A DNA stretch of 33,810 nt, from positions 5,163 through 38,972 of the forward strand of contig CAMYON010000020.1 in NCBI GenBank assembly GCA_947260025.1. The letters run 5' to 3'. A model generated the notes under the pieces. It ran no database searches. It was given only the letters and a program-made list of their open reading frames with translations, and had not been told where the DNA came from. Positions 5,595 to 28,226 of this stretch are shown one piece after another; position 1 is the first letter of the stretch, and the number at the start of each line of letters is the position of its first letter. The position numbers were made by a program, and so were the translations under genes. The stretch is from an uncultured Gammaproteobacteria bacterium. GTDB lineage: Bacteria; Pseudomonadota; Gammaproteobacteria; GCA-001735895.

Positions 5595-5614
5595 CCACTG
5601 TGCGGAAACAGTGG
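5595..5614 (-). promoter_or_regulatory. Hairpin in the leader before the D-amino-acid transaminase gene
   Basis: CCACTGT and ACAGTGG form a perfect 7-bp stem with a 6-nt loop, 78 bp upstream of the dat start and 33 bp past the DUF4392 stop. On the minus strand it is not followed by a clear U run, so it is a weak terminator at best; partial attenuation or mRNA processing is possible. Confidence 0.4.
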
Positions 5615-5647
5615 TGCCAGAGCAGAGGGCAATCGCGAAAATGGACG

Positions 5648-6493: not shown

Positions 6494-6503
6494 GATTTTA
6501 TAC

Positions 6504-8113: not shown

Positions 8114-8120
8114 CGGATTG

Positions 8121-8852: not shown

Positions 8853-8864
8853 GGTTGCCTCCAC

Positions 8865-9653: not shown

Positions 9654-9686
9654 GTTAGGCAAAAGAAGTAAGGTTAAACCCGGGTT

Positions 9687-11318: not shown

Positions 11319-11331
11319 GTTTACACCCGTG

Positions 11332-13635: not shown

Positions 13636-13636
13636 G

Positions 13637-14443
13637 CTATTTCCTCTCGCTGCTGTACTCGAGCCCACCGATCAGTTCACGCAGCTTCTGCAACGTTTGG
13701 CGTGGGGCCTCTATCGGTAACATATGTCCGTAGCGTTCGATAATCGTGACGCCGGCGTTCAATTCTTCGGCAAAGGCCATGCCTGCCTTGACCGGGGTCA
13801 GCAGGTCCTTGCGCGCCAGGATCAACTGTGACGGCAGGTCGATGCCTTGCGCGACTTCGCTGCCGTTCTGGTATTCGTTGCAGGCGACCAGGTCTTCGTA
13901 TAAAGGATTGCGCGCCATGATCTGGCGCCCGATCGCAATCGGTTGCATCCCGGGCACCGCGCTGATTCCGTATTGCGCATCGGGGCCGAAACCCCACATC
14001 AACAGCATTTCCGCGGCGGCGCCGGCGTTGTCGGCGGCCGCATCGATCAATGCCGGATTGACCGGAATCGCGCCCGCCGTGCCGATGCCGGTGATAGATT
14101 TCAGTAACTCCGGGGCCTGGCGTGCCAGCTCGAGCACGTCAAGAAAGCCCTGCGAATGCCCGACCGCGTGCACTCTATCGGCGCCGGCGGCGCGAATGAA
14201 TTCAGCCAGCCAGGTGCCCATATCCTCGATAGTTTCGAGCGGCTTACCGTCAGACAGGCTATGGCCCGGCAGATCTGGCGCCAGCACCGAGTAACCGTTA
14301 TAGGCGAACCAGCGGGTTTGCAGCGCCCAGCTGCGGTGGTCGAGCCCGCTGCCGTGCACGAACATGACGGTCGGCAGGCTGGTGTCGAATTCCTTGCCGC
14401 CGGTCGCGGCGTAGGTTTTGTTTCCGCGTACGTCGAGGTACAT
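13637..14443 (-). CDS. Alpha/beta-fold hydrolase
   Basis: A 268-residue single-domain hydrolase. The oxyanion segment MFVHGSGLDHRSW, nucleophile elbow VGHSQGFLDV (serine near residue 96), acid in LILARKDLLTP and histidine in IERYGHMLPIE form a complete triad in the usual order. There is no signal peptide, so it is cytoplasmic. Its ATG shares one base with the metY stop (TGATG) and it ends one base before the HAD/ECH fusion, so all three are translationally coupled. A thioesterase or lactone/ester hydrolase role in the same pathway is plausible; the substrate cannot be told from sequence. Confidence 0.88.
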   Translation of the reverse strand: MYLDVRGNKTYAATGGKEFDTSLPTVMFVHGSGLDHRSWALQTRWFAYNGYSVLAPDLPGHSLSDGKPLETIEDMGTWLAEFIRAAGADRVHAVGHSQGFLDVLELARQAPELLKSITGIGTAGAIPVNPALIDAAADNAGAAAEMLLMWGFGPDAQYGISAVPGMQPIAIGRQIMARNPLYEDLVACNEYQNGSEVAQGIDLPSQLILARKDLLTPVKAGMAFAEELNAGVTIIERYGHMLPIEAPRQTLQKLRELIGGLEYSSERK

Positions 14444-15753
14444 CAGGCTGCTCCCGCGACGCGCTGCGCGGCCTTGAAACCGCGTTTGAAATCGGCCTTG
14501 ATATCGGCGATATCCTCGATTCCGACCGAGACCCGGATCATGTCTTCACTGATGCCGGCAGCTTTCATATCGTCGACGGTAAGCCTGGAATGCGTTGTGC
14601 TGGCGGGATGCAGCACCAGCGTGCGCGCGTCTCCGACGTTGGCCAGATTGGACGCCAGCTGCAGCGAGTCGATGAATGCCGCACCACCGGCGCGGCCGCC
14701 AGCAACTCCGAAGCAGAGCATGGATCCGGCGCCATGCGGAAACAGGGTCGCCGCCAGGGCGTGGCTGGGATTCGATTCCATGTCGGGATAGTTGGTCCAG
14801 GTGACGGATTCCTGCTGCTGCAGCCATTCGAGCAGCTGCAAGGCATTGGCGACGTGCTGTTTCATGCGCAGGTTCAGGGTTTCGATACCCTGCAGGATCA
14901 GAAACGCGTTGTGCGGACTCATCGCCGCACCGACGTCGCGCATCGATTCGGCGCGCATTTTCATTGCCAGCGCCGAGGGTCCGAACTCTTCCCAGAAGCG
15001 GATGCCGTGGAACGGCGCATAGGGCTCGGTCAACTCCGGGAACCGTCCGCTTTGCTCCCAGTCGAAGCGCCCGCCGTCGACGATAGCGCCCCCGATCGCG
15101 ACACCGTGGCCGCCCATCCACTTGGTTACCGAATGCACCACGATATCGGCGCCGTGATCGATCGGTCGGCACAGGGTGGGCGTGGCGAAGGTCGCGTCGA
15201 CCACCAGCGGTATACCGGCCTCGTGCGCGATCGCGCTGATTGCGGGGATATTGGCGATTTCGAGACCCGGGTTACCGATCGACTCGCAAAACACCATCTT
15301 GGTGTTGGGCTGGATCGCGTCGCGCAGCGCCTGTTCGTCATTGATCGGGATGAAACTGCATTCGATGCCGAGGCGCTTGATGGTGTGTTTCAGCAGGGTC
15401 GCAGTCGAGCCGTAGATCTGCGTCGCCGAAACCAGGTGATCGCCGGCCGAGCACAGCGTGATAAACGCGGTGAACAGCGCACTCATTCCCGATGCGGTAC
15501 AAATCGCGCCGCTGCCGCCCTCGAGCGCGGCGATGCGCTGTTCCAGTACCGCTACCGTGGGATTGGTGATGCGGCTGTAGATATGGCCGCCCTGTTCGAC
15601 GTTGAACAGCGACGAGCCGTCGCTGACGCTTTCGAATACGTAGGAGGTGGTCTGGTAAACCGGTACCGCGCGCGAGCCGTGATCGCTCTCCGGCACGTAA
15701 CCGGTATGCAGCGCCACCGTGTCTGGTTTGAGGTACGAAGATCGGCTCATCAT
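14443..15753 (-). CDS. metY: O-acetylhomoserine aminocarboxypropyltransferase (sulfhydrylase), MetY-like
   Basis: A 436-residue Cys/Met-metabolism PLP enzyme. The PLP lysine is Lys211 in VHSVTKWMGGHG, with Tyr59 in HIYSRITNPT and FCESIGNPG also typical. The length and the segment WEEFGPSALAMKMR favour the O-acetylhomoserine sulfhydrylase group over gamma-lyases (about 400 residues). Such enzymes make homocysteine from sulfide or methionine directly from methanethiol. Two consecutive ATG codons follow a GGGAG site; the first (15753) is used. It begins 11 bp after the DmdA-like gene, which is striking because methanethiol is the end product of DMSP demethylation. A methionine gamma-lyase function is the main alternative. 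Confidence 0.85.
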   Translation of the reverse strand: MMSRSSYLKPDTVALHTGYVPESDHGSRAVPVYQTTSYVFESVSDGSSLFNVEQGGHIYSRITNPTVAVLEQRIAALEGGSGAICTASGMSALFTAFITLCSAGDHLVSATQIYGSTATLLKHTIKRLGIECSFIPINDEQALRDAIQPNTKMVFCESIGNPGLEIANIPAISAIAHEAGIPLVVDATFATPTLCRPIDHGADIVVHSVTKWMGGHGVAIGGAIVDGGRFDWEQSGRFPELTEPYAPFHGIRFWEEFGPSALAMKMRAESMRDVGAAMSPHNAFLILQGIETLNLRMKQHVANALQLLEWLQQQESVTWTNYPDMESNPSHALAATLFPHGAGSMLCFGVAGGRAGGAAFIDSLQLASNLANVGDARTLVLHPASTTHSRLTVDDMKAAGISEDMIRVSVGIEDIADIKADFKRGFKAAQRVAGAA

Positions 15754-15764
15754 GGTCTCCCGGG

Positions 15765-16865
15765 TTAGCAAATCGCGTCGAAATCGAAAGGCAAATCGAC
15801 TATTTTACCGATTTTTTCGTCTACCGTTACGCTTTGGCTGGTTGCGAGGAAATCCCGTTTCATCATCGCCATCGCCAGGTACTTCTGGTAGCGCGGCGAC
15901 CACACCTGCGAGCGCACGTCGCCGACCACGCGATCATCCGCGATTACCTTGAAATCGTCGAATTCCACCGGCTGGTCGAATACCAGTCCAACCAGTTGAT
16001 GCACGTGCTTGCCCCGAATCCTGCGCAGCGCCGGCAGGCTCATGGATTCGATATCGGCGTCGATATCGGTAAAGGCGTCGAGGCCGCATTCGAACGGGTT
16101 ATGCGTGAAATTCATGTCATTGCCATAAGACAGCAATCCACTCTCGATACGTTCGATCAGGTTTGGGCCCCCGGGCCGCACGTTGAGATCCTGACCCTTG
16201 TCGAACAGCTCGTCCCACAGCGGTTCGGCCAGATCGGGGTCATTCAGGTAAATCTCGAAACCGCCCTGTTTGCTGTAACCGGAGCGCATCACCATCATCG
16301 CCTTGCCCCGGAACTCCAGCATCCTGGAGCGAAAGAAACGAATACCCGGAACCTCGTCGCCAAATACCCGGGTAACCAGTTCTTCAGCTTTCGGACCCTG
16401 CACCGCAAGCGGCCAGACTGCCGCTTCTCGAATCTGGACGTCGAGGCCGGAGCCGTACGCGAGGCCGCGTGCCCATAAACGAACATCGCTATCCGCAATC
16501 GAAATCCACCAGTCGTTTTTGGCGAACTTGATCAACACCGGATCGTTTACCAGGCCGCCAAACTCATCGCATAGCGGCGCATACATACCCTGGCCGATGA
16601 CGGCCTTGGAGATATCGCGCGGTGTCATCAACTGGATCAAACGTTCGCTATCGGGGCCCGAGACTTCGATCTGCCGTTCGCAGGAAACATCCCACACCTG
16701 GACGTCCTGGCAAAGGCTCCAGTAATCGGCCTCGTTGCTTTCGAAGAAAGTGGGTAGCAGCATGTGGTTATAGACCGTGTAACCCTTGACGCCGGCCGCC
16801 TCGACGCGAGGGGTGAACGGGGTTTTGCGCGTGCGCCGCGAAATGCTCAGGATCTTGTCAGCCAA
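15765..16865 (-). CDS. dmdA: DMSP demethylase-like GcvT-family protein (DmdA)
   Basis: A 366-residue GcvT-fold, folate-dependent methyltransferase. The N-terminal ISRRTRKTPFTPRVEAAGVK and YTVYNHMLLPTFF, then VQVWDVSCERQIEVSG, LMTPRDISK, WWISIADSDVRLW, AVQGPKAEELV, GYSKQGGFEIYL and PNLIERIESGLLSYGNDM, follow the dimethylsulfoniopropionate demethylase pattern as I recall it, rather than true GcvT. Reaction: DMSP + THF -> methylmercaptopropionate + 5-methyl-THF. There is no ATG; an in-frame stop lies 7 codons upstream, and TTG 16865 is served by GGTGGAG 7 nt ahead. It heads the long minus-strand run with metY next. A promoter with an overlapping palindromic operator lies upstream. Some DmdA-like GcvT paralogues do not use DMSP, which limits certainty. 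Confidence 0.78.
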   Translation of the reverse strand: MADKILSISRRTRKTPFTPRVEAAGVKGYTVYNHMLLPTFFESNEADYWSLCQDVQVWDVSCERQIEVSGPDSERLIQLMTPRDISKAVIGQGMYAPLCDEFGGLVNDPVLIKFAKNDWWISIADSDVRLWARGLAYGSGLDVQIREAAVWPLAVQGPKAEELVTRVFGDEVPGIRFFRSRMLEFRGKAMMVMRSGYSKQGGFEIYLNDPDLAEPLWDELFDKGQDLNVRPGGPNLIERIESGLLSYGNDMNFTHNPFECGLDAFTDIDADIESMSLPALRRIRGKHVHQLVGLVFDQPVEFDDFKVIADDRVVGDVRSQVWSPRYQKYLAMAMMKRDFLATSQSVTVDEKIGKIVDLPFDFDAIC

Positions 16866-16916: not shown

Positions 16917-16945
16917 ATGCTAGTCGTTTTTGATTTGTCTGACAA
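16917..16945 (-). promoter_or_regulatory. Predicted sigma70-type promoter of dmdA
   Basis: On the minus strand TTGTCA (16940-16945) and TAGCAT (16917-16922) are separated by exactly 17 bp. They match the -35 consensus at 5 of 6 positions and the -10 at 4 of 6. This predicts a leader of roughly 45 nt before the TTG start at 16865. The -35 box lies inside the palindrome at 16933-16947, so bound regulator should block it. Confidence 0.5.
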
Positions 16946-16947
16946 AT
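16933..16947. promoter_or_regulatory. Palindromic operator upstream of dmdA (GntR/FCD-type)
   Basis: ATTTGT-CTG-ACAAAT is a perfect dyad with 6-bp arms and 3-bp centre, 68 bp before the dmdA start. GntR/FadR-type regulators commonly bind GT-N3-AC-centred dyads of this size. A near-copy, including matching flanks, lies between the gntR and acuI genes at 27202-27214. The shared site makes that GntR/FCD protein the leading candidate regulator of this run. Confidence 0.6.
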
Positions 16948-16989
16948 AAGAAGTTACCTGCATACCCCTTGTTTTTACCTGATCACGAC

Positions 16990-17826
16990 TCAGGCCGGGT
17001 AGCGCGGTGCGTGGGCCTCGATTTCAGCCACTCTCGGTCCATAGTGTAAAATGCTCGATTCGATACTGCCGTAAAGGTCGGGGCGGGTGGAATAGCCGAG
17101 AATTGCCTGGATGCGCTGGCGTTTGCCTGCCACTGGCGTGACTCGATGCAGCGAATAATGACCGCGAAACAATGACAGGGTTCCGGCCTGCAGACGATTC
17201 TGCAGCACGCCGTCGTGAAGACCATCTAGTACTGACTCTACCGCCTCGAAATTCTCGTTTTCCTCGGAGCGAATGGCGGGTACGTATTCGAAAACTCCGC
17301 CGGACTCGGGCGCCTGCAGCAGCAAGGTTGTTACCAGGTTACCGCTATCGAAATGCCACTGCTGACACCCGCCAGTGCCCATGACCGAGATATTGAGCGA
17401 TTGATAGGGATCCTGATTGAGATAAACAGGCAGGCCAGTAACGGCGCCGAGGAAGTCGAGCATCAGCTCGCTGCGGTAAAGTCGGCTGAGCAGAAATTCT
17501 TCGGGTATCAGGTCGGCGGCAACCTGTGCCAGATTGCGTTTGCCCTTGCGTCGCAGCGGGTGCGACGCAGGCAGATCCTCACCCTCACCGAGTCGGTAAT
17601 TGAAAAAGTAGGGTGACGCTTCGATCGGCCCGGGGTGGGCGAGATGAGCAATGCTGCGCGCCTGCGACGCCATTTGCTCGAGCGCCTCGGGGTCGATGAA
17701 TTCAGGGAACAGGCAGGAACCGTCCTGTTCGAGATTGTCGCGCACCTCGTCGAGCCACTCCCGTCCACGCGCCGAACTCAGGTTTTCGAGCGGATAACGC
17801 TCGAGGTTGATAATTGACGCCCGCAT
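16990..17826 (-). CDS. Fe(II)/2-oxoglutarate-dependent oxygenase, BesD/HalD-like family, with hydroxylase-type triad
   Basis: A 278-residue non-heme iron oxygenase. The iron triad is His158-x-Asp160 in GGCQQWHFDSGNLV and a distal His227 in HYSLHRVTPVAGKRQR; the arginine after it would bind 2-oxoglutarate. LLLQAPESGGVFEYVPAIRS between them resembles the amino-acid halogenase/hydroxylase family that includes BesD, as I recall it. Halogenases there have glycine where Asp160 stands, leaving room for chloride; the aspartate here predicts hydroxylation, probably of a free amino acid. The ATG at 17826 opens divergently from the radical SAM gene. It lies upstream of dmdA on the same strand but separated by 124 bp containing the dmdA promoter. 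The substrate is unknown. Confidence 0.78.
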   Translation of the reverse strand: MRASIINLERYPLENLSSARGREWLDEVRDNLEQDGSCLFPEFIDPEALEQMASQARSIAHLAHPGPIEASPYFFNYRLGEGEDLPASHPLRRKGKRNLAQVAADLIPEEFLLSRLYRSELMLDFLGAVTGLPVYLNQDPYQSLNISVMGTGGCQQWHFDSGNLVTTLLLQAPESGGVFEYVPAIRSEENENFEAVESVLDGLHDGVLQNRLQAGTLSLFRGHYSLHRVTPVAGKRQRIQAILGYSTRPDLYGSIESSILHYGPRVAEIEAHAPRYPA

Positions 17827-17912
17827 CGGGGCAAAATTACAGGATTTATCGTATGATGCAAGCCCGTTACACTTGTGTCATGCTGCGTTGATAATTTAAG
17901 CCTGCTGTTACC

Positions 17913-18812
17913 ATGCTCCATCAACTTCCCGTGCAATATATCGAGCCGCTGTTTCGCCCGCCGAGCGAGGCGCGGTCGCTCATTTTCCAGGTTACCAATG
18001 GTTGCAGCTGGAACCGCTGCAGTTACTGTGAAATGTACACCGATCCGCAAAAGAAATTCAGGGCGCGACCCGAATCGGAAGTGCTGGCCGAGATCCGAAA
18101 CTGCGCCGAACAGGGCCTTACGCCGCGCCGCGTGTTTCTCGCCGATGGCGATGCGCTGGTTTTGCCGATGCGGCGCCTGCGCAATATTCTCGAGGAAATC
18201 AGGATTTCGCTGCCGACGGTGAGCAGGGTATCTTCCTACTGCCTGCCGGCAAACCTGAAGCGCAAGAGTAACGACGATCTGGCCGAGCTCGAGGCGTTGG
18301 GATTGAAGATTATTTATGTGGGCGCCGAAAGCGGTAACGACGAGGTGTTGCAAAGGATCGACAAGGGAGAGACCCACGCGACTACCGCGGAGGCGCTGCT
18401 GCGCGCCCGGGCCGCCGGCATCAAAACTTCGGTAATGATATTGAACGGTCTCGGGGGCAGGTTATTGAGTCGGCAACACGCGCTGGAGTCGGCGCGGCTG
18501 GCGAACGAGACGCAACCCGATTACCTGGCGACGCTGGTGCTAACCTTTTACAAGGGACGCGAGCGATTCGAGGCAGGATTCGATAACCGGTTCGAGGAAC
18601 TCGCTACGGTGGGTTTATGCGAGGAAATGCAGACCTTTATCGGTGCGCTGGAGCTCGAAAACACGATATTTCGTAGCGATCACGTATCCAATCACATGGT
18701 GCTCAAAGGTGTACTCGGCAAGGATAAGGCACGCCTGTTGCAGCAAATCGATCAATCTATCGAGTATTTCAAAAGTCACCCGGAATTCGATCATGGCAAC
18801 TTCGGATATTAG
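17913..18812 (+). CDS. Radical SAM protein with CX4CX2C cluster motif
   Basis: A 299-residue radical SAM enzyme. The [4Fe-4S] cysteines are Cys31, Cys36 and Cys39 in NGCSWNRCSYCEMY, giving CX4CX2C instead of the common CX3CX2C. A SAM-binding glycine-rich segment (LADGDALVLP), the AESGNDEVLQRI motif and the SVMILNGLGG strand support a COG1032-type barrel. There is no B12-binding or auxiliary-cluster domain and no signal peptide. No Shine-Dalgarno is visible before ATG 17913. It overlaps the DUF1289 gene by 20 bp, and a Nudix gene follows, suggesting one transcript. It diverges from the 2OG oxygenase. I do not recognise a specific reaction. Confidence 0.82.
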   Translation: MLHQLPVQYIEPLFRPPSEARSLIFQVTNGCSWNRCSYCEMYTDPQKKFRARPESEVLAEIRNCAEQGLTPRRVFLADGDALVLPMRRLRNILEEIRISLPTVSRVSSYCLPANLKRKSNDDLAELEALGLKIIYVGAESGNDEVLQRIDKGETHATTAEALLRARAAGIKTSVMILNGLGGRLLSRQHALESARLANETQPDYLATLVLTFYKGRERFEAGFDNRFEELATVGLCEEMQTFIGALELENTIFRSDHVSNHMVLKGVLGKDKARLLQQIDQSIEYFKSHPEFDHGNFGY

Positions 18813-18996
18813 TAACGCGTTGCACGTCGAGTCACCCTGCGTGCGCAAATGCACGCTCGACAGCGACGATATTTGCGTGGGCTGCTACCGCAGCATCGAT
18901 GAGATCTGTGCCTGGGGCGGTGCCGATAACGACCAGCGCCGCGCGATTCTGTTGCAGGCCAGTGCACGGCGAGAAAGCAATAGCAGAAGTGCCTGA
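18793..18996 (+). CDS. DUF1289 mini-protein with four cysteines
   Basis: A 67-residue DUF1289 protein. Four cysteines (16, 20, 28, 31) sit in ESPCVRKCTLDSDDICVGC, followed by YRSIDEICAWG, the family signature. The spacing suggests a zinc or Fe-S site; function is unknown. It overlaps the end of the radical SAM gene by 20 bp and its stop overlaps the proposed Nudix start, so the three appear translationally coupled. Confidence 0.85.
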   Translation: MATSDISNALHVESPCVRKCTLDSDDICVGCYRSIDEICAWGGADNDQRRAILLQASARRESNSRSA

Positions 18997-19597
18997 TCTC
19001 GACCAGCTCAGCGCCGACGAAATTCGCGCCCGGCTGCATGCCCAGGGTGGTAAAACTTATGATGTACCCCCGGAAATGCTGAGCGATTCGGCGCGCGAAG
19101 CGGCGGTTCTGGTGCCTTTCCTGCGCATCGAGGATGCCTGGCATATCCTCTATATTCGGCGCGCGCATTACGAGGGGGACCGCCACAGCGGCCAGGTCGC
19201 TTTTGCCGGGGGCAAGCGTGACGCCGGTGACGATTCGTTACTGGCTACCGCGCTGCGCGAGACCGAGGAAGAGGTGGGCATTGCCGCGGACGATATCAAA
19301 GTGCTGGGTCATATCAATCATCATCACACCATCAGCGAGTTCCAGGTGCGCCCCTATGTCGGTGTCGTGCCCTGGCCATACGAGTTGACGCTGGACGAGA
19401 TCGAAGTCGCGCGGGCGTTTACCATGCCGCTCAACTGGCTGGCGCAGGAATCCAATTACCGTATCGAGGAGCGCCGGCATCCGGAATCCCGGCGGTCGTG
19501 GCCGATTGTCTACTATGACCTGTACGATGGCGAAATGCTGTGGGGCGCGACCGCGCGTATGACCCTGTCGCTGATCGATTTGCTGCGCGGAGAATAA
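18989..19597 (+). CDS. Nudix hydrolase, CoA pyrophosphatase-like
   Basis: A Nudix enzyme of about 202 residues. The Nudix box reads GGKRDAGDDSLLATALRETE followed by EEVGI, with the RE..EE core intact, and HSGQVAFAGGKRD is typical of the CoA pyrophosphatase (NudL) group that splits CoA into phosphopantetheine and 3',5'-ADP. The start is uncertain: GTG 18989 gives a family-like length and overlaps the DUF1289 stop by 8 bp, GTG 18962 is an alternative, and an ATG at 18899 would run deep through DUF1289. It is third in the radical SAM/DUF1289/Nudix set. Confidence 0.85.
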   Translation: MPDLDQLSADEIRARLHAQGGKTYDVPPEMLSDSAREAAVLVPFLRIEDAWHILYIRRAHYEGDRHSGQVAFAGGKRDAGDDSLLATALRETEEEVGIAADDIKVLGHINHHHTISEFQVRPYVGVVPWPYELTLDEIEVARAFTMPLNWLAQESNYRIEERRHPESRRSWPIVYYDLYDGEMLWGATARMTLSLIDLLRGE

Positions 19598-19640
19598 ATT
19601 GTCCGAGCGTTCTGCGACGCCGCAGGCTCGAAGTCCCTGA

Positions 19641-20384
19641 CTAGTGGTACTTCTCGGTAGTGAAATGACCGGGATCGCGGCGGCGATGTTTTTTCATGTC
19701 GCGCGACATCAGCTCGGCGCTAACGTCGGTAATCATGGCCGAGCTGCCGCACATCATGACGTGCGAGTCTTCGGCATTGATCGTTATCCCCGTATGCTGC
19801 TCCAGGCTGCCATCCTGCATCAGCGCGGGAACGCGGCTGCCGAGTGCGCCCTCATGCGACTCGCGCGTTACCACCGGCACGAAATGAAACTGGTCGCCAT
19901 GTTTGTCGCGGATGCCCGCAATGATCTCCCGGTAGGCCAGTTCCGCGGCATAGCTGACCGAATAGCAGAGCACGATTTTTTCGAATTGCTGCCACGCGGC
20001 CTCGCTTTTGAGAATTGACAGGAAAGGCCCGATGCCGGTGCCGGTGGCGATCATCCACAGATGCCTGCATTCGGGGACTTCGCTGACGGTCAGGAATCCG
20101 GACGGATTGTTGGATACTAGAATGTCGTCGCCGGTTTGAAGCTCGAACAGGCGTGGCGATAGCGGGCCTTGTTCGACCCGGTTGAAGTAGACTTCGAGAT
20201 GTTTTTCCTGCGGCGTATTGACCAGGGAATAGGGGCGAGCGAGCACCTCGTCGCCAGCAGGCAGCCCGATACGCACGAACTGTCCCGCTTCGTAATCGCC
20301 GATATCGACATCGATAATCAGCGCGGTCAGGTAATCGTTGAGTCGCCTGTTGTCGACGACCTTGCCTTCGAGCCAGCTAGCCAT
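19641..20384 (-). CDS. fpr: Ferredoxin/flavodoxin-NADP+ reductase
   Basis: A 247-residue FNR-fold flavoprotein. FAD binding is shown by ARPYSLVN (residues 49-56), NADP binding by IATGTGIGPFLS (about 113-124), and the C terminus HFTTEKYH matches the bacterial Fpr subclass whose tail stacks on the flavin. It moves electrons between NADPH and ferredoxin or flavodoxin, and could feed the nearby radical SAM protein. It starts one base after the GST stop, so the two form an operon; it converges with the Nudix gene. Confidence 0.92.
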   Translation of the reverse strand: MASWLEGKVVDNRRLNDYLTALIIDVDIGDYEAGQFVRIGLPAGDEVLARPYSLVNTPQEKHLEVYFNRVEQGPLSPRLFELQTGDDILVSNNPSGFLTVSEVPECRHLWMIATGTGIGPFLSILKSEAAWQQFEKIVLCYSVSYAAELAYREIIAGIRDKHGDQFHFVPVVTRESHEGALGSRVPALMQDGSLEQHTGITINAEDSHVMMCGSSAMITDVSAELMSRDMKKHRRRDPGHFTTEKYH

Positions 20385-20385
20385 G

Positions 20386-21045
20386 CTACGCCGCCAGCCG
20401 GGTCAGGCTATACGACTCGTTCTTTTCCAGTACCGCGAAATACAGGTCTTCGAACTCGTCCACCACCGAATCGCGAACTTCAGGCAGCGACAGCAGGCGC
20501 TCGGCCCAGGCGCTGACTTTGGGCATGGTTTTGGAGTCGATTATCGACAGCTTGCCACCGGCGACCGAATCATGACGGAACAGCGGTGCGAACGCGGTAT
20601 CGGCCAGCGAAAAATCCTCGCCGTTAAACCACGGGCCGTTGCCCAGGCGCTTTTCGACGCGTTGCAACTGGCTCACCAGCGTTTGTCGGTATTTGGTGTA
20701 GCGTTCCTCGTCCTTGCTCATCTTCATCATGTAGAGATTACCGAGCATGTTGGAGGCGAACTCGATCCAGGCCCGATTCTTGGCGCGCGCCAACGGATCT
20801 TTCGGTTGCAGTTCGCCGCCGGTGATTTCATCCAGGTACTCGTTGATCACGGCCGATTCGAACAGTATCTCGTCGTCGACCTTGAGTACCGGCACCTTTG
20901 CCAGCGGAGACATTTCCAGGAACCAGTCGGGTGGATCGGCGAGATCGATATAGGTAATGTCGAAATCGATATTTTTATGCTTCAGTGTAATCACCGCCCG
21001 CTGTACAAAGGGGCAGGTTTTAAAGCTGATCAGATGTAGCGACAT
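20386..21045 (-). CDS. Glutathione S-transferase family protein
   Basis: A 219-residue two-domain GST. The thioredoxin-fold N terminus carries a catalytic-type cysteine, CPFVQR at residues 11-16, as in omega/DHAR-like GSTs that act as thiol transferases. The cis-proline motif KVPVLKVDD and ESAVINEYLDE form the glutathione site. A helical C-terminal domain follows, with WFNGEDFSLADTAFAPLF. A GGGAGG Shine-Dalgarno lies 7 nt before ATG 21045. It is followed directly by fpr. Confidence 0.9.
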   Translation of the reverse strand: MSLHLISFKTCPFVQRAVITLKHKNIDFDITYIDLADPPDWFLEMSPLAKVPVLKVDDEILFESAVINEYLDEITGGELQPKDPLARAKNRAWIEFASNMLGNLYMMKMSKDEERYTKYRQTLVSQLQRVEKRLGNGPWFNGEDFSLADTAFAPLFRHDSVAGGKLSIIDSKTMPKVSAWAERLLSLPEVRDSVVDEFEDLYFAVLEKNESYSLTRLAA

Positions 21046-21165
21046 TGAGTTGCCTCCCGGCTTAAGTCAGAATGTAGTATCTTTCGTAGCAATGTATGGG
21101 CCTGGTATCGAAAACTCAAGCCTGGACTATGCGGATTGACCAGATCAGCCCGGGAGGCGTTTAAC

Positions 21166-21834
21166 ATGTCGACTTCGTCAATTGGTCTCGATGACCGGCT
21201 GCAGCAGTACCTGCTCGATGTCTCGTTGCGGGAGCCGCAAGCCTGCGCGCGCTTACGCGAGCAAACCCTGTCGATGCCCGATGCAAATATGATCAGCTCG
21301 CCTGAACAGGTGCAGTTATTGAAACTGCTGTGCAAGATGCTGGGGGCCCGCAGCGGGCTCGAGATCGGCACCTTTACCGGCTATACCACCCTGTGCCTGA
21401 CGATGGCGATGCCAGAACTGAAGATGACCTGCTGCGACGTGAGCGAAGAATACACCAGCATCGCGCGCGAACACTGGCAGGCGGCTAACGTGGCCCAGCG
21501 TATCGATTTGCAGATCGCTCCGGCTCAGGCAACGCTTGATTGGCTGATCGACGAAGGTTTCGAGGGCGCGTACGATTTTGCCTATATCGATGCCGATAAA
21601 TCTGGCTACAGGTCCTACGTCGAATCCTGCCTGTCGTTGGTCCGCAACGGTGGCCTGATCATGCTCGACAACGTACTGTGGAATGGATCCGTCGTCGATC
21701 CCGAGGATAACAGCACGGATACCGTGGCGTTGCGCGAGCTTAATGCATGGATCTACGAACGGGCACCGGGACGCTATGATCTGTCGCTGATTCCGATCGG
21801 GGATGGCCTTACGGTGCTGCGCAAGTATTACTAG
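21166..21834 (+). CDS. SAM-dependent O-methyltransferase (COMT/CCoAOMT type)
   Basis: A 222-residue class I methyltransferase. SAM motif I is GLEIGTFTGYTTLCL; FAYIDADKSGY supplies the acidic metal/catalytic segment and LIMLDNVLWNGSVVDP the conserved metal-binding part. The family methylates catechol-like hydroxyls with divalent cation. ATG 21166 has GGGAGG 8 nt ahead; an earlier TTG start is therefore unnecessary. It is divergent from the GST-fpr pair, with a 120-bp shared promoter region. The natural substrate is unknown. Confidence 0.9.
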   Translation: MSTSSIGLDDRLQQYLLDVSLREPQACARLREQTLSMPDANMISSPEQVQLLKLLCKMLGARSGLEIGTFTGYTTLCLTMAMPELKMTCCDVSEEYTSIAREHWQAANVAQRIDLQIAPAQATLDWLIDEGFEGAYDFAYIDADKSGYRSYVESCLSLVRNGGLIMLDNVLWNGSVVDPEDNSTDTVALRELNAWIYERAPGRYDLSLIPIGDGLTVLRKYY

Positions 21835-21901
21835 GCGCTTGCCGGCATAGAACTTTAGCCATGAATCCCTGAAATGAAGGATATGACCTGGGCGCTGTCG
21901 G

Positions 21902-23011
21902 TTAAACGGCGGGCCCGGTCGCCTGTTCGGGAAAGGCACGCGTCAGTGCCGACTCGCTTGCCGCCACGATACCGCGCTCGGTGATTAATCCCGTTACCAG
22001 TCTGGCCGGTGTTACATCGAAGGCATAGTTCGCTACCCGGGTGCCCGGCGGCACGATGGATACCGATTCGATCCGGCCGTCTGGCAGGCGGCCCGTGATC
22101 TGTGACACTTCGCTGCCGTCACGTTGCTCGATCGGCACCTGGTTCAGGCCGTCGTGGATAGTCCAGTCGATCGTCGAGCTCGGCAAGCAGACGTAAAACG
22201 GCAGCGCGTTGTCCTTTGCAGCCAGCGCTTTCAGGTAGGTACCGATCTTGTTGCAAACGTCACCGCTGCGCGTGGTGCGATCGCTGCCGACGAGGCACAG
22301 GTCGACCTGGCCATGCTGCATCAGGTGACCGCCGGTATTATCGGCGATCAGGCTATGGGGCACGCCGTGATGTCCGAGTTCCCAGGCGGTGAGGCTAGCA
22401 CCCTGGTTGCGCGGCCGGGTTTCGTCGACCCAGACGTGAATCGGGATGCCGCTGTTGAAGGCCATGTAAATCGGTGCGGTCGCGGTGCCCCAGTCGACCG
22501 TCGCCAGCCAGCCGGCGTTACAGTGAGTCAGGATGTTGATTACCTCGCCAGGCGCTTTGTGCGCGGCGATGTTGTTGATCAGTTGCAAACCGTGTCTACC
22601 GATTTGCTGGTTGATATCGACATCGAGTTCGGCAATATCCCGGGCCGTTTCGAGGGCGCAGGCGGCGCGCTCATCCGGTTCCAGTCCTGCGAGGCTAGCC
22701 CGCGTCCGATCCAGCGCCCAGCGCAGGTTAACCGCGGTTGGCCGCGCCGCGTAAAGCGATTCGTAAGCGCTGTCGATAGCGGCATTGGCAGCGTCCCGCA
22801 GCATCGCGAGATAAAAACCGTATGCCGCGGTGGCGCCGATCAGCGGTGCGCCGCGCACTACCATGTTGCTGATCGCGTCGCGGGCATCTTCGAGCGTACG
22901 CAAATTCAGGATTCGAAATTCATGCGGTAACCGGGTCTGGTCGATGACATCGATCGAGATACCGTCATCGTTGACCCAGATGCTGCGATAGGGCACGCCA
23001 TCGACATTCAT
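21902..23011 (-). CDS. mtnA: S-methyl-5-thioribose-1-phosphate isomerase
   Basis: A 369-residue MtnA. Catalytic Cys164 in [10 protein letters not shown] and Asp244 in [19 protein letters not shown] are present, along with [13 protein letters not shown] near residue 53 and [20 protein letters not shown]. It converts methylthioribose-1-P to methylthioribulose-1-P in the salvage of methylthioadenosine. The start follows the aldolase stop by 3 bp, so both are co-translated. The neighbour is a FucA-like aldolase, not MtnB/MtnC/MtnD, which points to the DHAP shunt. No mtnP or mtnK is in the window. Confidence 0.94.
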
Positions 23012-23014
23012 GAG

Positions 23015-23674
23015 TCAGTCTTCGCCTGCGGGCTGCTTGCCGTAATCGGCAAATTTCTCGATGACTTCCTGCATTTGCTCAGCGCTCAGGATCACGGGAT
23101 TGCCGGCCTGGCGCGCGTGCCAGTACTGCCTGGCCAGGGTTTCGACTTCGATTCCGAGCCACAGCGCCTTTTCCAGGTTATCGTGGAAACAGATCATGCC
23201 GTGAGTGCCAAGCAGGCAGGCACGCCGTCCGTCGAGCGCGCTGAGCATATGATCCGACAGCTGCTGGGTACCGAATAGCGCGTAATCGGCACACCTGATG
23301 TCGCTGCCACCGGCGACTGCGACCATGTAGTGGAAAGCCGGAATATCGAGTCGCAGGCAGGACAGCGCCGTGGCAAACGTCGGATGTGCGTGCAACACGG
23401 CGCCGGCCTCGGGTCGCTTCAGGTAGATATCTCGATGCATGCGCCATTCGCTCGAAGGTTTCATCCTGTCTTTGCAGTTACCGTCGAGCGCCACCAGCAC
23501 TATGTTGTCGGGTTGCAGGCGGTCATAGGCGAGGCCCGACGGCGTGATCAGGAAACCATTCTCGAAACGCAGGCTGATATTTCCAGCGCTGCCCTGGTTG
23601 ATACCGGCGGCGTTCATCGCCAGGCAGGTATCGATAAGCTGTTGGGACAGCGACGCGCGGCTGGCTGAATTCAT
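23015..23674 (-). CDS. Class II aldolase, probable methylthioribulose-1-phosphate aldolase (FucA/Ald2-like)
   Basis: A 219-residue class II aldolase/adducin fold protein. Zinc ligands are His95 and His97 (LHAHPT) and His158 (LGTHGM); Glu76 in MKPSSEWRMH is the catalytic base. FHYMVAVAGGSDIRCADYALFGTQQLSD is the fuculose-1-P aldolase pattern and differs from MtnB dehydratase. Next to mtnA, the likely reaction is methylthioribulose-1-P -> DHAP + (2-methylthio)acetaldehyde, as in the DHAP shunt. It lies between the thioredoxin-fold gene (12 bp) and mtnA (3 bp). A sugar-phosphate aldolase role is the alternative. Confidence 0.85.
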   Translation of the reverse strand: MNSASRASLSQQLIDTCLAMNAAGINQGSAGNISLRFENGFLITPSGLAYDRLQPDNIVLVALDGNCKDRMKPSSEWRMHRDIYLKRPEAGAVLHAHPTFATALSCLRLDIPAFHYMVAVAGGSDIRCADYALFGTQQLSDHMLSALDGRRACLLGTHGMICFHDNLEKALWLGIEVETLARQYWHARQAGNPVILSAEQMQEVIEKFADYGKQPAGED

Positions 23675-23686
23675 CGTCGCGCCCGG

Positions 23687-24646
23687 TTACTCGGCTGTCT
23701 CGCGCTGCTGCAGCCGCCAGCCCTGATAATCGAGACCGCTGCTGTAGCCACGGCGGTTGACGTAATCGAGTACGCCCCACAGGCGGTAGAACTGCACCAC
23801 GGAATCGACACGCATGATTTCCTTGCCCTCGGGGCTGAAAAGGATGATGGTCGGAGTATAAAACAGCTCCAGCTCCTGCCCCCACTGTTTTGCGGTCGTT
23901 TGCCTGCCGGATGGCGTAACGATCTCGGTATCGCCGAACAGGCTTAGCTGTACCACCTCCATTTTCTCGATCTCCGCCAGGATTTCGTCCTGCGACAGCG
24001 GCCCCGTGTGCAGCAGTTCGCAGGCATGGCAGGAGCCCTGTTCGAATATCACCGCGAGCGGTTTACCCGAATTGTTTCGGCTGCGATCGAGGTTGTAAGG
24101 CGGTGGCTGGTAGAAATCCCGGTCGATGAGCTCGCCGGAGGTGAAGAAAAGCCCGGGTTCCGCGCGCGCCAGGTAATCGCGAAACTTTTCGACGCGGTAA
24201 AATCCCTCGATCACGTAATGCAGTACCGCGCGAAACTGGTAGGGCGGGTAGTAGCCGCGCAGGCGATAAACGGGCTTGCCCTTGCGATCGTAGAACACCA
24301 GCGATGGCGTGAAGTTGGTCTTGTAGCGTAACGAAAGTTCGCGCTCGGTATAGTTGTTACCGTCGGTATCGACAAACTCCTCGATGCCCCAGATATCTAC
24401 CGGAATAACGTCGAAATTCTGCTGCAGGTAATGCGAAATGCTGTCATCGGCGAGGTTGATTTCGAAGAACTGTTCGCAATAGGCGCAGCGCTTTTGGCCA
24501 TAGTAGACCACGATGCCGAACTTGCCCTCGGCCCGGGCTTCCGCGATATCGTCGTTGAGGTCGCCGAGGCTGAGCTTGAACCATTCCGGATACTCCAGTT
24601 CTTCCTCGAGCAGGGTGTCGTCGAACTGAAGGTTCTGCGTTTCCAT
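23687..24646 (-). CDS. Tandem thioredoxin-fold protein
   Basis: A 319-residue protein with two thioredoxin-like domains. Domain 1 has CAYC at residues 54-57 and a cis-proline in FTPSLVFYD (Pro114). Domain 2 has CHAC at 206-209 and Pro265 in YTPTIILF. The tail of domain 1 (YRLRGYYPPYQFRAVLHYV) is echoed in domain 2 (MRVDSVVQFYRLWGVLDYV), suggesting internal duplication. There is no signal peptide, so it should act in the cytoplasm, unusual for SoxW/DsbE-like proteins it resembles. It opens the set containing the aldolase and mtnA; a link to thiol or methylthio chemistry is inferred only. Confidence 0.8.
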   Translation of the reverse strand: METQNLQFDDTLLEEELEYPEWFKLSLGDLNDDIAEARAEGKFGIVVYYGQKRCAYCEQFFEINLADDSISHYLQQNFDVIPVDIWGIEEFVDTDGNNYTERELSLRYKTNFTPSLVFYDRKGKPVYRLRGYYPPYQFRAVLHYVIEGFYRVEKFRDYLARAEPGLFFTSGELIDRDFYQPPPYNLDRSRNNSGKPLAVIFEQGSCHACELLHTGPLSQDEILAEIEKMEVVQLSLFGDTEIVTPSGRQTTAKQWGQELELFYTPTIILFSPEGKEIMRVDSVVQFYRLWGVLDYVNRRGYSSGLDYQGWRLQQRETAE

Positions 24647-24707
24647 AGTTTAGAAATATCCAGTTTCGTCACCGGTCGGGAATGATCCAGATCAATATTC
24701 GGTAAAA

Positions 24708-26114
24708 CTATTTATCGCTACGTCCATAAACATCTTCGAAACGCACGATATCGTCCTCGCCGAGGTATGAGCCCGACTGCACTTCGATGATGTCGAGCGG
24801 GTCATCGCCGGGATTTTCGAGATAGTGCGTGGCGCCGAGCGGAATAAAAACCGATTCGTTTTCGTGCAGGTCGAAAATCTCGTCATCGCGGAACACGCGT
24901 GCGGTGCCCCTGACCACAACCCAGTGCTCGGCGCGATGATGGTGCATTTGCTTGGACAGGCGCGCGCCGGGTTTGACGCTAATGCGCTTGACCTTGTAAC
25001 CCTCACCTTCGTCGACCGAATCGAAGCTGCCCCAGGGGCGATAGACGATTCGATGAAAGTTTTCTTCCTCGCGACTGTCCTGCGCCAGCCGTTCGACAAT
25101 TTGCTTAACTTCCTGCGCCTTTTCCTTGTCGGCTACCAGCACCGCGTCTTCGGTTTCGACGATCACCAGGTTGCTGACACCGACCGTTGCCACCAGTCGG
25201 CTACCGGCATGCACGATCGAGTTTTCGGTGTCGGTGGTCAGCACATCGCCGCGCGTGGCGTTACCCCGGTCATCTTTCTCACCCTGTTCCCACAGGGACG
25301 ACCAGCTACCGATATCGCTCCAGCCGGCATCCATCGGCACCACGCAGGCGAGGTCGGTTTTTTCCATGACGGCGTAGTCGATCGAGTCGGCCTCGCATTC
25401 GGCAAAGGCGTCGGCATCGAGCCTGAGAAAACCGATGTCCTCGGTCATGGCGTCGGCCGCCTGCCTGCAGTGTTTGATCATCTCGGGATTGAATTTCTCC
25501 AGCTCGTCGAGATAGCTTTGGGCGCGAAACATGAACATGCCGCTATTCCAGTAATGCTCCTTAGTAGTGAGGTACTGCTCGGCGGTTGAGTGATCGGGCT
25601 TTTCGACGAATTCGTCGACCCGAAAACCATTGCCGGTCTGCTGTCCGCGTTTGATATAGCCATAACCGGTCGCCGCGTAGGTCGGTACGATGCCGAAGGT
25701 TACCAGGTTGCCGGCCTCGGCCAGGGGTAAAGCCTGTCTGACGACGTCGGTAAAAGCCTGCTGGTCCGGAATTTCGTGATCCGCCGTCAATACCAGTAAC
25801 ACGGGATCGCCGCCCTGTTGCAGGGCGTGAACGGCAGCCACCGCGATTGCCGGCGCGGTATTCCTGCCGAAGGGCTCCAGTATTATCGATAAATCCTCGA
25901 TGCCGATTTGACGCGCCTGTTCAGCGACGATGAATCGGTGTTCATCGTTACAAACCACGGTGGGCGGCTGGTGTTCGAGGCCGTCGAGTCGTTGCAGCGT
26001 TCGCTGCAGCATGGTTTCATCATGTAACAGGCTATGGAACTGTTTGGGGTACATTTTGCGTGACAAGGGCCACAGGCGTGTTCCGGAGCCACCGGAAAGA
26101 ATAATGGGAATCAA
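24708..26114 (-). CDS. manC: Mannose-1-phosphate guanylyltransferase / mannose-6-phosphate isomerase
   Basis: A 468-residue bifunctional enzyme (ManC/AlgA/CpsB type). The nucleotidyltransferase begins at ILSGGSGTRLWPLSRKMYPK; the C-terminal cupin isomerase has KPGARLSKQMHHHRAEHWVV. It supplies GDP-mannose for polysaccharide or glycan synthesis. There is no ATG: an in-frame TAA lies two codons upstream, and TTG 26114 has AGAGG 7 nt ahead, so TTG initiation is well supported. No polysaccharide cluster surrounds it, so it may be a free-standing supply gene. Confidence 0.93.
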   Translation of the reverse strand: MIPIILSGGSGTRLWPLSRKMYPKQFHSLLHDETMLQRTLQRLDGLEHQPPTVVCNDEHRFIVAEQARQIGIEDLSIILEPFGRNTAPAIAVAAVHALQQGGDPVLLVLTADHEIPDQQAFTDVVRQALPLAEAGNLVTFGIVPTYAATGYGYIKRGQQTGNGFRVDEFVEKPDHSTAEQYLTTKEHYWNSGMFMFRAQSYLDELEKFNPEMIKHCRQAADAMTEDIGFLRLDADAFAECEADSIDYAVMEKTDLACVVPMDAGWSDIGSWSSLWEQGEKDDRGNATRGDVLTTDTENSIVHAGSRLVATVGVSNLVIVETEDAVLVADKEKAQEVKQIVERLAQDSREEENFHRIVYRPWGSFDSVDEGEGYKVKRISVKPGARLSKQMHHHRAEHWVVVRGTARVFRDDEIFDLHENESVFIPLGATHYLENPGDDPLDIIEVQSGSYLGEDDIVRFEDVYGRSDK

Positions 26115-26144
26115 TTGTTAGCCTCTGTCGATGTTGTGAAACAG

Positions 26145-26155
26145 TTACATTGTAA
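26145..26155. promoter_or_regulatory. Short palindrome in the manC divergent promoter region
   Basis: TTACA-T-TGTAA is a perfect dyad 31 bp ahead of manC and 54 bp ahead of the small membrane protein gene. TTATAG at 26175-26180 could serve as a -10 element for the latter. The role is speculative. Confidence 0.25.
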
Positions 26156-26208
26156 ATACCACGTTCAGCGTCCATTATAGTTCGATAAGAGAGTTAAAAA
26201 CAGGCGTC

Positions 26209-26430
26209 ATGACATCCGATATTGAACGCTCCGAAGCAGTGGTCGAAGGCTACAAAAAGCACAAGCTTGCAAGCAGCGCGCTGCGCCGGATTCAGGAAAT
26301 CATCAGCGGATTCGAACGCGACCGTGCCGCAGACTTGCGTATGGCTCGGATCGGAATCTTCATTATTATCACGATTCTGGGCGTTGCGGGCTGGTTCTTT
26401 TTAGGCGTCGATAGTCAAACGCTTTCCTGA
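26209..26430 (+). CDS. Small single-pass membrane protein, unknown function
   Basis: A 73-residue protein I do not recognise. The first 44 residues are charged and probably helical (ERSEAVVEGYKKHKLASS); residues 46-66 form one hydrophobic segment (GIFIIITILGVAGWFFLG). The N-terminal part would lie in the cytoplasm if the basic residues follow the positive-inside rule. It is divergent from manC and overlaps the 3' end of the convergent gntR gene by 16 bp. Coding is supported by sensible amino-acid composition and an ATG with a weak AGG site; no homologue is named. Confidence 0.55.
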   Translation: MTSDIERSEAVVEGYKKHKLASSALRRIQEIISGFERDRAADLRMARIGIFIIITILGVAGWFFLGVDSQTLS

Positions 26431-27149
26431 GCCCGAACGGCGGTAGCCTGCTCAAACTTTTGCAGCAGGTAATCGAGCAATACATCCATTAACTTGCCCA
26501 ACTCGGCCGCGTTGCGCTGACGCAACTGCGCCAGCATTCGCTGGTGCAGCGAGATGATGTCGCTGCGCTCGCGCACCACGGTAACCACCATGTTGGTTAC
26601 CGGTATCAGTGATTCGATGACGGTATACATGACGAAACGCAGCATGCCGTTGTTGGTTGCGTCGACCAGCGCGCGGTGAAATGCCACGTCGGCCTGGCAA
26701 AAGTCTTCATCGCTTATCTCCGGGTCCTGCTGACGTCGCAGCGCGGTTTCGATGTTTCGCAGGTGAGCCTCGTCCGCGCTGATTACCGCCTGCTGCAGGC
26801 AACTGACCTGGAGTATGCGACGGGCTTCGATGATTTCCTCGATGTCGAGTGCGCCCATGCCCACCAGTAGCGTTGCCGCGCCGCTCAGAGATTCGGCGAG
26901 TTCTTCGAAACTCGGCTGCACCACGAAATTACCACCCGTCGGGCCACGTTTGGCGCGCACCAGGTTCTGCGCCGCAAGTCTTTTCAGGGCTTCACGCACG
27001 CTCGGGCGCGACACGCCGTAGCGCTGCGCAAGCTCATCCTCGGTTGGCAGTCGCTCGCCGATTTTGAACTGCCCGCTGACGATAGCGCTGCGCAACTGCT
27101 CGGCGATCTGCTTCGAAATACTTGCCTTGACGATGGCGTTTTCCTGCAC
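26415..27149 (-). CDS. GntR-family regulator, FadR/FCD subfamily
   Basis: A 244-residue regulator. The N-terminal winged helix reads IGERLPTEDELAQRYGVSRP, then SVREALKRLAAQNLV; the C-terminal FCD ligand domain has QADVAFHRALVDATNNGML and a downstream ISLHQRML histidine, fitting a metal-binding acid sensor. The start is GTG (27149), with an AGGG site. It is divergent from acuI, with operator TTTGT-CTT-ACAAA between them; on the minus strand the operator includes a TTGTAA that could be its own -35, implying autoregulation. A matching site precedes dmdA 10 kb away. The ligand may be a DMSP breakdown product such as acrylate or its CoA ester; this is inference. Confidence 0.88.
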   Translation of the reverse strand: MQENAIVKASISKQIAEQLRSAIVSGQFKIGERLPTEDELAQRYGVSRPSVREALKRLAAQNLVRAKRGPTGGNFVVQPSFEELAESLSGAATLLVGMGALDIEEIIEARRILQVSCLQQAVISADEAHLRNIETALRRQQDPEISDEDFCQADVAFHRALVDATNNGMLRFVMYTVIESLIPVTNMVVTVVRERSDIISLHQRMLAQLRQRNAAELGKLMDVLLDYLLQKFEQATAVRAQESV

Positions 27150-27201
27150 GTTTCAACCCTGATTTTGTGATGCATTTAACGAATAATTACTTTACCATGA
27201 T

Positions 27202-27214
27202 TTTGTCTTACAAA
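27202..27214. promoter_or_regulatory. Palindromic operator between gntR and acuI
   Basis: TTTGT-CTT-ACAAA is a perfect 5-bp dyad with a 3-bp centre, inside a wider TGATTTT (27198-27204) / AAAATCA (27218-27224) inverted repeat. A direct repeat of TGATTTTGT occurs at 27160-27168 and 27198-27206. The site matches the one upstream of dmdA at 16933-16947 across core and flanks (TGA, then ATAAGAA or ATAGAAA). It lies 22 bp before acuI and 52 bp before gntR, suiting control of both. Confidence 0.62.
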
Positions 27215-27236
27215 TAGAAAATCACAGGATTGTTTC

Positions 27237-28226
27237 ATGGCAGATCAGTTTCAGGCGTATCAAATCGGTAAAAGCGACGATGGCCAGCGTTGTGCGCTGA
27301 CGCAACTCGACGACAGCGATTTGATGGAGGGGGACGTCACGGTGAGGGTCGAATATACGACCCTGAACTACAAGGATGGCCTGGCACTTACCGGCAGATC
27401 ACCCATTATTCGTAAATTCCCGCTCACGCCGGGTATCGATTTCAGCGGCACTGTAATTGCCTCGAGCCACGCCGATTTCAAGGATGGCGACCAGGTCATA
27501 TTGAATGGTTTTGGCGTGGGTGAAGTGCATTCGGGCGGTTATGCGCAAAGGGCGCGGGTCAGCGGCGACTGGCTGGTTCCGCTGCCGGATGGCCTCGATA
27601 TGCGGCAGGCCATGGCGATCGGTACCGCCGGCTATACCGCGATGCTGAGCGTTATGGCGCTCGAACAGCACGGCATAAAACCGGGCGATGGCGATATCCT
27701 GGTAACCGGCGCGTCGGGCGGTGTCGGCAGCGTTGCGGTTGCGACCCTGAGCAAGCTCGGCCATCGTGTGGTGGCTACCACCGGGCGCATGAATGAAAAG
27801 GACTTCCTGGCCGGACTAGGCGCCGCGGATGTGCTCGATCGTGCCGATTTTGCCGATAAGGCGCGTCCGCTCGGCAAGGAGTTATGGAGCGGGGCGATCG
27901 ATGTGGCCGGGGGTAATACGCTGGCTAACGTGCTTAGCCAGCTGTGTTATGGTGGTGCCGCGGCCATTTGCGGCCTGGCTGAATCCATGAATTTACCGAC
28001 TACCGTAGCGCCATTCATTTTGCGCGGGATTTCCATGTACGGTATCGATTCGGTAATGGCGCCGATTGCGAAACGCAAGATAGCCTGGCAGCGCCTGGCT
28101 TCCGACCTCGATCTGGCGTTACTCGACGAGCTTAGCTTCGATCTCGATTTTGCCGACCTGCCACAGGCTGCCGAAGATATACTCGCCGGCAAGATTCGCG
28201 GCAGGGCAGTGGTCAAGTTGCCGTGA
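27237..28226 (+). CDS. acuI: Acryloyl-CoA reductase, AcuI-like (MDR family, YhdH type)
   Basis: A 329-residue zinc-free medium-chain reductase. TTLNYKDGLALTGRSPIIRK, PLTPGIDFSGTV, the NADP fold DILVTGASGGVGSVAVATLS and YGGAAAICGLAESMNLPTTV are typical of AcuI/YhdH. It reduces acryloyl-CoA to propionyl-CoA with NADPH, which protects cells using DMSP or 3-hydroxypropionate. ATG 27237 has AGGA 7 nt ahead. The divergent GntR gene and shared operator with dmdA support a DMSP-linked function; in roseobacters acuI is commonly next to dmdA. A general quinone-reductase annotation would be less specific. Confidence 0.85.
   Translation: MADQFQAYQIGKSDDGQRCALTQLDDSDLMEGDVTVRVEYTTLNYKDGLALTGRSPIIRKFPLTPGIDFSGTVIASSHADFKDGDQVILNGFGVGEVHSGGYAQRARVSGDWLVPLPDGLDMRQAMAIGTAGYTAMLSVMALEQHGIKPGDGDILVTGASGGVGSVAVATLSKLGHRVVATTGRMNEKDFLAGLGAADVLDRADFADKARPLGKELWSGAIDVAGGNTLANVLSQLCYGGAAAICGLAESMNLPTTVAPFILRGISMYGIDSVMAPIAKRKIAWQRLASDLDLALLDELSFDLDFADLPQAAEDILAGKIRGRAVVKLP

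Follow-up and report, generated by a model that had tools for sequence, protein, structure and literature searches.

The 33,810-nt contig stretch analysed here (the window), from an uncultured gammaproteobacterium with a genome of 3.59 Mb (G000), raises the question of how genes for the metabolism of dimethylsulfoniopropionate (DMSP) that lie apart from each other could be controlled together. A minus-strand run of closely spaced genes begins with dmdA, which encodes DMSP demethylase, and a GntR/FCD regulator gene (gntR) lies 10 kb off, divergent from acuI, which encodes acrylyl-CoA reductase. Demethylation of DMSP competes with its cleavage to dimethyl sulfide, and acrylate, a product of cleavage, raises demethylase expression in Ruegeria (available text of PMC3338564); what sets the choice between the pathways was described in 2022 as not fully understood (available text of PMC9769926). 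Naming the protein and its operators would open the switch between demethylation and cleavage to experimental test. On the evidence of comparative sequence analysis, the GntR/FCD protein is probably a repressor of gntR-acuI, of the dmdA operon and of at least two unlinked promoters, released by a carboxylate derived from DMSP.

The two loci share a palindrome. Reading both sites confirms the common core and similar flanks reported in an earlier note on this DNA: TGA precedes the core in each, and the 3' flanks are ATAAGAA and ATAGAAA. Operator 1 (ATTTGTCTGACAAAT) is a perfect 7-1-7 palindrome, and operator 2 has the core TTTGTCTTACAAA at 27202-27214, a 13-mer with one mismatch between its arms. 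The placement proposed for the two sites also holds. Operator 1 overlaps the -35 box of TTGTCA-17-TAGCAT (16945-16917, minus), the sole promoter-like site in 16860-17000 (shuffles yield a mean of 0.0), and operator 2 lies between genes whose identities as a GntR/FCD regulator and acuI are borne out by domain and family scores (Table 1). A consensus promoter scan found none for acuI; with boxes inferred from relatives, operator 2 falls within the spacer, and the equivalent place in genome G024 reads TTGACA-17-TATCAT with the palindrome in its spacer.

Exact copies of the motif are confined to three places in the source genome (pattern TTTGTCNNACAAA, four strand hits, against one for the reversed-pattern control) rather than scattered over it. 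Two of the three are the window operators, and the third falls within an open reading frame (ORF). Inside the window, the 13-mer at up to two mismatches gives 15 strand hits against 4.9 expected, a number reached by 0 of 100 shuffles, and the 15-mer ATTTGTMWKACAAAT matches the two operators with 0 and 1 mismatch, the next-best window places having 3. With one mismatch, the 13-mer occurs genome-wide at 32 distinct places; its 39 strand hits do not exceed the 61 of the reversed control, so only near-exact copies are informative by themselves. These places comprise the two window operators, two more elsewhere in the window and 28 outside it; 16 of the latter were examined, 10 within a long ORF taken as the gene and 6 intergenic. 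Two of these six precede an aminotransferase gene and a gamma-lyase-like gene and proved to be conserved (see below); the other four precede genes resembling metK (L009:4106), nadA (L005:2551), a Rieske protein gene (L006:4067) and a LemA gene (L014:4293), all named by eye.

Comparison with relatives supports the view that three elements are conserved as a unit: the regulator, the gntR-acuI intergenic site and the dmdA promoter. The sample comprises 31 genomes of the genus, including the source, and 26 genomes from outside it. An orthologue of gntR (E <= 1e-30) is present in 19 of the 31 and in none of the 26. Upstream regions were scanned for the best ATTTGTMWKACAAAT match within 250 bp (plus 15 bp), and all 19 gntR genes have the palindrome at their own promoter with 0-2 mismatches; its form, NyGTNxACNy, is the site consensus quoted for the GntR family in PMC8206213. 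Among gntR-carrying genomes, the site stands at 0-1 mismatch in 18/18 dmdA promoters (no dmdA was found in G026 at the search threshold) and in 17/18 acuI promoters, the remaining one having 2. Counts for gntR and acuI are not independent, because they mostly refer to the same intergenic site. A second dmdA of G023, which is not among the 18, has the site without mismatches. Shuffled promoters reach 0-1 mismatch in 0/3480 trials, and identity across relatives is 0.94-0.97 in the site columns and 0.57-0.76 in the flanks. The 14-mer TTTGTMWKACAAAT is found in 22 of the 31 genomes, including all 19 with gntR (the reversed control has 2 strand hits); outside the genus its 6 strand hits, against 4 for the reversed control, are background. 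Chance origin of the near-exact sites is rejected by the genome scan, the genus scan with its control and the shuffled promoters. Rows dropped from the counts were dmdA of G018 (start cut off), dmdA paralogues of ~50% identity, and two acuI rows: that of G017, which is in two fragments and whose site is already included in the gntR count, and that of G012, which is cut. Also outside the counts, the dmdA paralogues of G019 and G008 have 5 mismatches each, the other paralogues not being scanned, and in four genomes from outside the genus the acuI gene has 3-6.

In genomes where no gntR was detected, the site is mostly lost. Twelve genus genomes have no detected gntR orthologue, and a looser search finds only 26-34% relatives in four of them. 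Without gntR, the site is found at no more than one mismatch in 3/8 genomes at dmdA (Fisher p 8.5e-4) and in 2/8 at acuI (p 7.8e-4), with kinship ignored in both tests. In an acuI tree of 26 genus and 2 outgroup rows, built by a quick method, the branches with good support require the gntR label to change at least four times. Two sister pairs, G001 (gntR) with G006 (not found) and G020 (gntR) with G019 (not found), are supported by approximate likelihood-ratio (SH-aLRT) values of 99 and 98 and differ in operator integrity as well as in gntR. Both G006 and G019 have a manC-like gene (named by eye) directly upstream of acuI, divergent and on the same contig; in the window, gntR sits between the manC-like gene and acuI. 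Both genomes have an altered acuI palindrome, and G006 an altered dmdA palindrome as well; the neighbouring promoter letters are kept. The comparison in relatives suggested by the earlier note thus finds the motif conserved where the loci are kept and mostly lost where gntR was not found, and from this pattern the regulator most likely controls both dmdA and acuI. Another proposal would make the palindrome part of the core promoter rather than an operator. The palindrome does include the dmdA -35 box, but its position relative to the -10 box varies from target to target, and the acuI promoters of G019 and G027 keep their flanks while the palindrome core changes (by eye); operator position and the matched pairs lead us to reject this hardly credible explanation.

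Several acuI promoters of genomes without gntR (L125 of G016, L126 of G027, L128 of G008 and L129 of G018) display a palindrome-like core with GC replacing GT, for example ATTTGCCATGCAAAT. In G027 the -35 and -10 boxes are kept despite the GC core. Such cores perhaps mark a takeover by another regulator, or decay.

The regulon had been envisaged as local. The joint conservation of gntR, the gntR-acuI site and the dmdA promoter supports the regulon, but "local" is too narrow a term, since two unlinked promoters carry a conserved site. One was found through genus-wide matches beyond the two loci and lies 7 bp upstream of the start of a gene for a SufS-like class-V aminotransferase (L004:3695-5164; G000:C28; also in L096-L105); at up to two mismatches it is present in 12/15 gntR-carrying genomes against 1/10 other genus genomes (p 9.8e-4, kinship ignored; G001 and G022 were dropped as cut, and G043, with 7 mismatches, as outside the genus). 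The other, ATTTGTCTTACTAAT (L003:4804; G000:C2:69802), was traced from a one-mismatch place in the source genome and immediately precedes the -10-like box in front of a cystathionine gamma-lyase/synthase-like gene. It is present in 11/13 gntR-carrying genomes against 0/5 others (p 2.5e-3, kinship ignored; G028, G017, G010 and G018 were dropped as cut, and G012, G024 and G027, at ~45%, were taken as paralogues). Both enzymes score below the curated NCBIfam cut-offs of the families listed (14/14 for the aminotransferase, 25 of 43 for the gamma-lyase-like enzyme). In relatives, the aminotransferase gene has among its neighbours a homocysteine S-methyltransferase gene, a gamma-lyase-like gene and a PuuE-like gene that scores below its cut-off.

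We infer a mechanism in which the GntR/FCD protein would bind the 15-bp palindrome as a dimer and, when bound, repress gntR and acuI together, along with the dmdA operon and, at a minimum, the two unlinked promoters. Operator positions, computed directly like conservation and co-loss, fit steric repression: the site lies on the -35 box at dmdA, in the -35/-10 spacer at acuI, and between the -10-like box and the start codon at the aminotransferase gene. Some GntR proteins are activators, and the regulator might activate these promoters instead. AcuR of Halomonas D47, from a different family, reportedly raises the transcription of acuI (available text of PMC13104084). Since the three positions fit blocking, we regard activation as improbable. 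If the protein is a repressor, a small DMSP-derived carboxylate, most probably acrylate, would free it from DNA; acrylate from cleavage would then turn on both its own detoxification by AcuI and the demethylation branch, which spares making more acrylate.

The regulator has an N-terminal GntR winged helix and a C-terminal FCD domain. In 22 aligned sequences, D154, H158 and H202, candidates for the Asp and His residues that bind metal in an FCD pocket, are invariant; a later His of NanR is unmatched. In the same alignment the segment VSRxx(V/I)REALKRLAAQ, presumably the recognition helix, is nearly identical between gammaproteobacterial and alphaproteobacterial homologues. Solved structures that match the regulator include NanR 6on4 and the GntR protein 2di3. 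NanR, LldR, PdhR and FadR are relatives by sequence, but the NCBIfam equivalog scores fall far under the cut-offs (114/260, 75.7/311, 75/330 and 40.8/249.2, respectively). The closest named records found for the regulator come from gammaproteobacterial metagenome-assembled genomes (MAGs) and a scaffold of the Olavius algarvensis Gamma 3 endosymbiont (71-91% identity), followed by Candidatus Thiodiazotropha (61-63%).

Outside the genus, 65 homologue loci were examined over at most 10 kb on each side. Of these, 60 contain acuI or dmdA (>=43% identity): acuI is present in 57 and dmdA in 26. A related palindrome (up to two mismatches) precedes gntR in 64/65 loci against 3.75 expected from shuffles, and acuI in 20/33 against 2.3 expected, loci with dmdA hits being left out of the latter. 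Homologues in Rhodobacteraceae, too, are situated close to acuI or dmdA-acuI and accompanied by such a palindrome. In Candidatus Thiodiazotropha (L195-L197), gntR and acuI stand head to head, a related palindrome accompanies them, and the stretch contains no dmdA; ten Celeribacter loci (L201, L202, L205, L209, L212, L217, L218, L224, L228 and L235) have the same arrangement, also with the palindrome and no dmdA in the stretch. The gntR-acuI pair may therefore predate the link to dmdA.

Acrylate is our best guess for the inducer because acrylate, and not methylmercaptopropionate (MMPA), induces dmdA-acuI in Ruegeria pomeroyi DSS-3: the available text of PMC3338564 reports co-induction of ~10-fold by DMSP and 14-fold by acrylate. 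The more frequent association of the regulator family with acuI than with dmdA, and the presence of a PF16867 DMSP-lyase-family protein in the genome (88.2 bits, cut-off 27), point the same way. The latter could be a source of acrylate, although belonging to that family does not prove DMSP lyase activity and the protein receives no NCBIfam name; no operator precedes the PF16867 genes in the three genomes checked (best matches with 7, 4 and 7 mismatches). In G018 (L270:5878-6492), the PF16867 gene adjoins a homocysteine S-methyltransferase-like gene, and a class-V aminotransferase start lies ~560 bp beyond. The regulator might instead sense a sulfur or one-carbon metabolite (methanethiol, methionine, MMPA or MMPA-CoA), with acuI a passenger target: both unlinked targets are pyridoxal-phosphate enzymes of sulfur amino-acid type, and the gene after dmdA is MetY-like. 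The bias of the family towards acuI outside the genus and the failure of MMPA to induce the Ruegeria operon speak against such a ligand, which we consider unlikely without thinking it far-fetched.

Footprinted sites of the same palindrome type are known for LhgR, a GntR-family regulator of a small-acid catabolic gene in Pseudomonas putida W619, protected from DNase I at TTGTCTGACAA (own promoter) and TAGTCTGACAA (another bound fragment); LhgR differs in controlling L-2-hydroxyglutarate catabolism, with no DMSP genes in the available text (PMC8206213). Control of acuI together with DMSP genes and with acrylate as effector is described for AcuR (TetR) and AcuZ (LysR) of Halomonas D47 (PMC13104084) and for AcuR of Rhodobacter sphaeroides (PMC3017554), but, as far as these texts are available, through other protein families, other operators and cleavage genes rather than dmdA. 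No TetR gene of the AcuR type was found beside acuI in the window, where the neighbour has GntR and FCD domains; the genome elsewhere was not searched for TetR. R. pomeroyi resembles the present case in the co-regulation of dmdA and acuI, and related Rhodobacteraceae have a GntR homologue (~40-48% identity) near dmdA-acuI; it differs in having a single dmdA-acuI operon where there are two promoters here, and the available text of PMC3338564 does not contain the word GntR. The open-licence literature searched names no GntR regulator of dmdA or acuI, though one may be in print elsewhere; the regulon predicted here is of the GntR/FCD kind, with new targets. We advance, tentatively and with less than even confidence, a wider scheme in which a single ancient GntR/FCD sensor of acrylate, linked to acuI both in Gammaproteobacteria and in Rhodobacteraceae, recruited dmdA as a target in each of these lineages. 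The sensor would be the unnamed regulator behind the acrylate induction of demethylation, so that feedback from the cleavage product would set how DMSP flux divides between demethylation and cleavage, and in these gammaproteobacteria it would also control enzymes of sulfur amino acids.

Several observations run counter to control of all these promoters by the acuI-linked regulator. Perfect sites stand at both dmdA and acuI in G011 and at dmdA in G025, with no orthologue detected in either genome; G012 (dmdA) and G018 (acuI) likewise have one-mismatch sites. These four are incomplete MAGs (87-96%; G011 92%, G025 87%), but a second binder is possible. G019, which also lacks gntR, retains the aminotransferase site at 2 mismatches. 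Conversely, the aminotransferase site is absent in G003, G015 and G024 and the gamma-lyase-like site in G001 and G029, all of which have gntR. In 26 alphaproteobacterial dmdA loci, the 230 bp upstream contain a site at up to two mismatches in 1 case against 1.7 expected; the link to Ruegeria is therefore drawn from gene neighbourhood and from the palindromes next to gntR and acuI. Finally, ATTTGTMWKACAAAT was written after the sites were seen, and the fairer tests are the exact genome scan, the genus scan with its reversed control and the co-loss test. The sites kept in G011 and G025 would also fit binding by another FCD-type GntR protein, with the gntR beside acuI a mere neighbour: the genome has eight FCD matches, and the NyGTNxACNy site type is common to GntR proteins (PMC8206213). 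Five of the other seven FCD genes were tested, and the best match to TTGTCNGACAA in their own upstream regions has 3 mismatches (L176 and L180 were outside the test). Site integrity, moreover, tracks the acuI-linked gntR across genomes, and we hold another FCD protein to be quite improbable as the binder.

Table 1. Operators, promoter boxes and genes of the two loci (positions in the window)
Feature	Position	Strand	Basis or remark
Operator 1, ATTTGTCTGACAAAT	16933..16947	.	predicted site; overlaps dmdA -35 box
dmdA -35 box TTGTCA	16940..16945	-	promoter consensus scan
dmdA -10 box TAGCAT	16917..16922	-	promoter consensus scan; conserved in relatives
Operator 2, TTTTGTCTTACAAAT	27201..27215	.	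predicted site; between gntR and acuI
Inferred acuI promoter TTTACC-18-TAGAAA	27191..27220	+	-35/-10 inferred from relatives; operator 2 within spacer
dmdA, DMSP demethylase, TTG start	15765..16865	-	NF009133 465.1 bits, cut-off 410 (passed)
MetY-like, O-acetylhomoserine sulfhydrylase family	14443..15771	-	TIGR01326 589.5 bits, cut-off 495.1
Alpha/beta hydrolase	13637..14443	-	domain search
3-Hydroxyacyl-CoA dehydrogenase / enoyl-CoA hydratase fusion	11332..13668	-	domain/family search
Acyl-CoA synthetase	9687..11357	-	NF006020 816.2 bits, cut-off 677
Remainder of run: D-glutamate cyclase, LamB_YcsF, carboxyltransferase CD and AB, GLUCM-like, aminotransferase IV	4660..9662	-	
GntR/FCD regulator, proposed binder	26415..27149	-	PF00392 73.6 bits (cut-off 27), PF07729 63.9 bits (cut-off 24.3)
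acuI, NADPH acrylyl-CoA reductase	27237..28226	+	NF051456 478.7 bits, cut-off 440 (passed)

Within the dmdA run, the MetY-like enzyme could capture methanethiol, and the acyl-CoA synthetase is a candidate MMPA-CoA ligase. The run extends with gaps of no more than ~25 bp into 5-oxoprolinase-like and D-glutamate cyclase genes, and this spacing suggests co-transcription from dmdA down through 4660-9662. The window also contains, at 1192-2739, a gene for an MttB-like methyltransferase that is divergent from a LysR gene.

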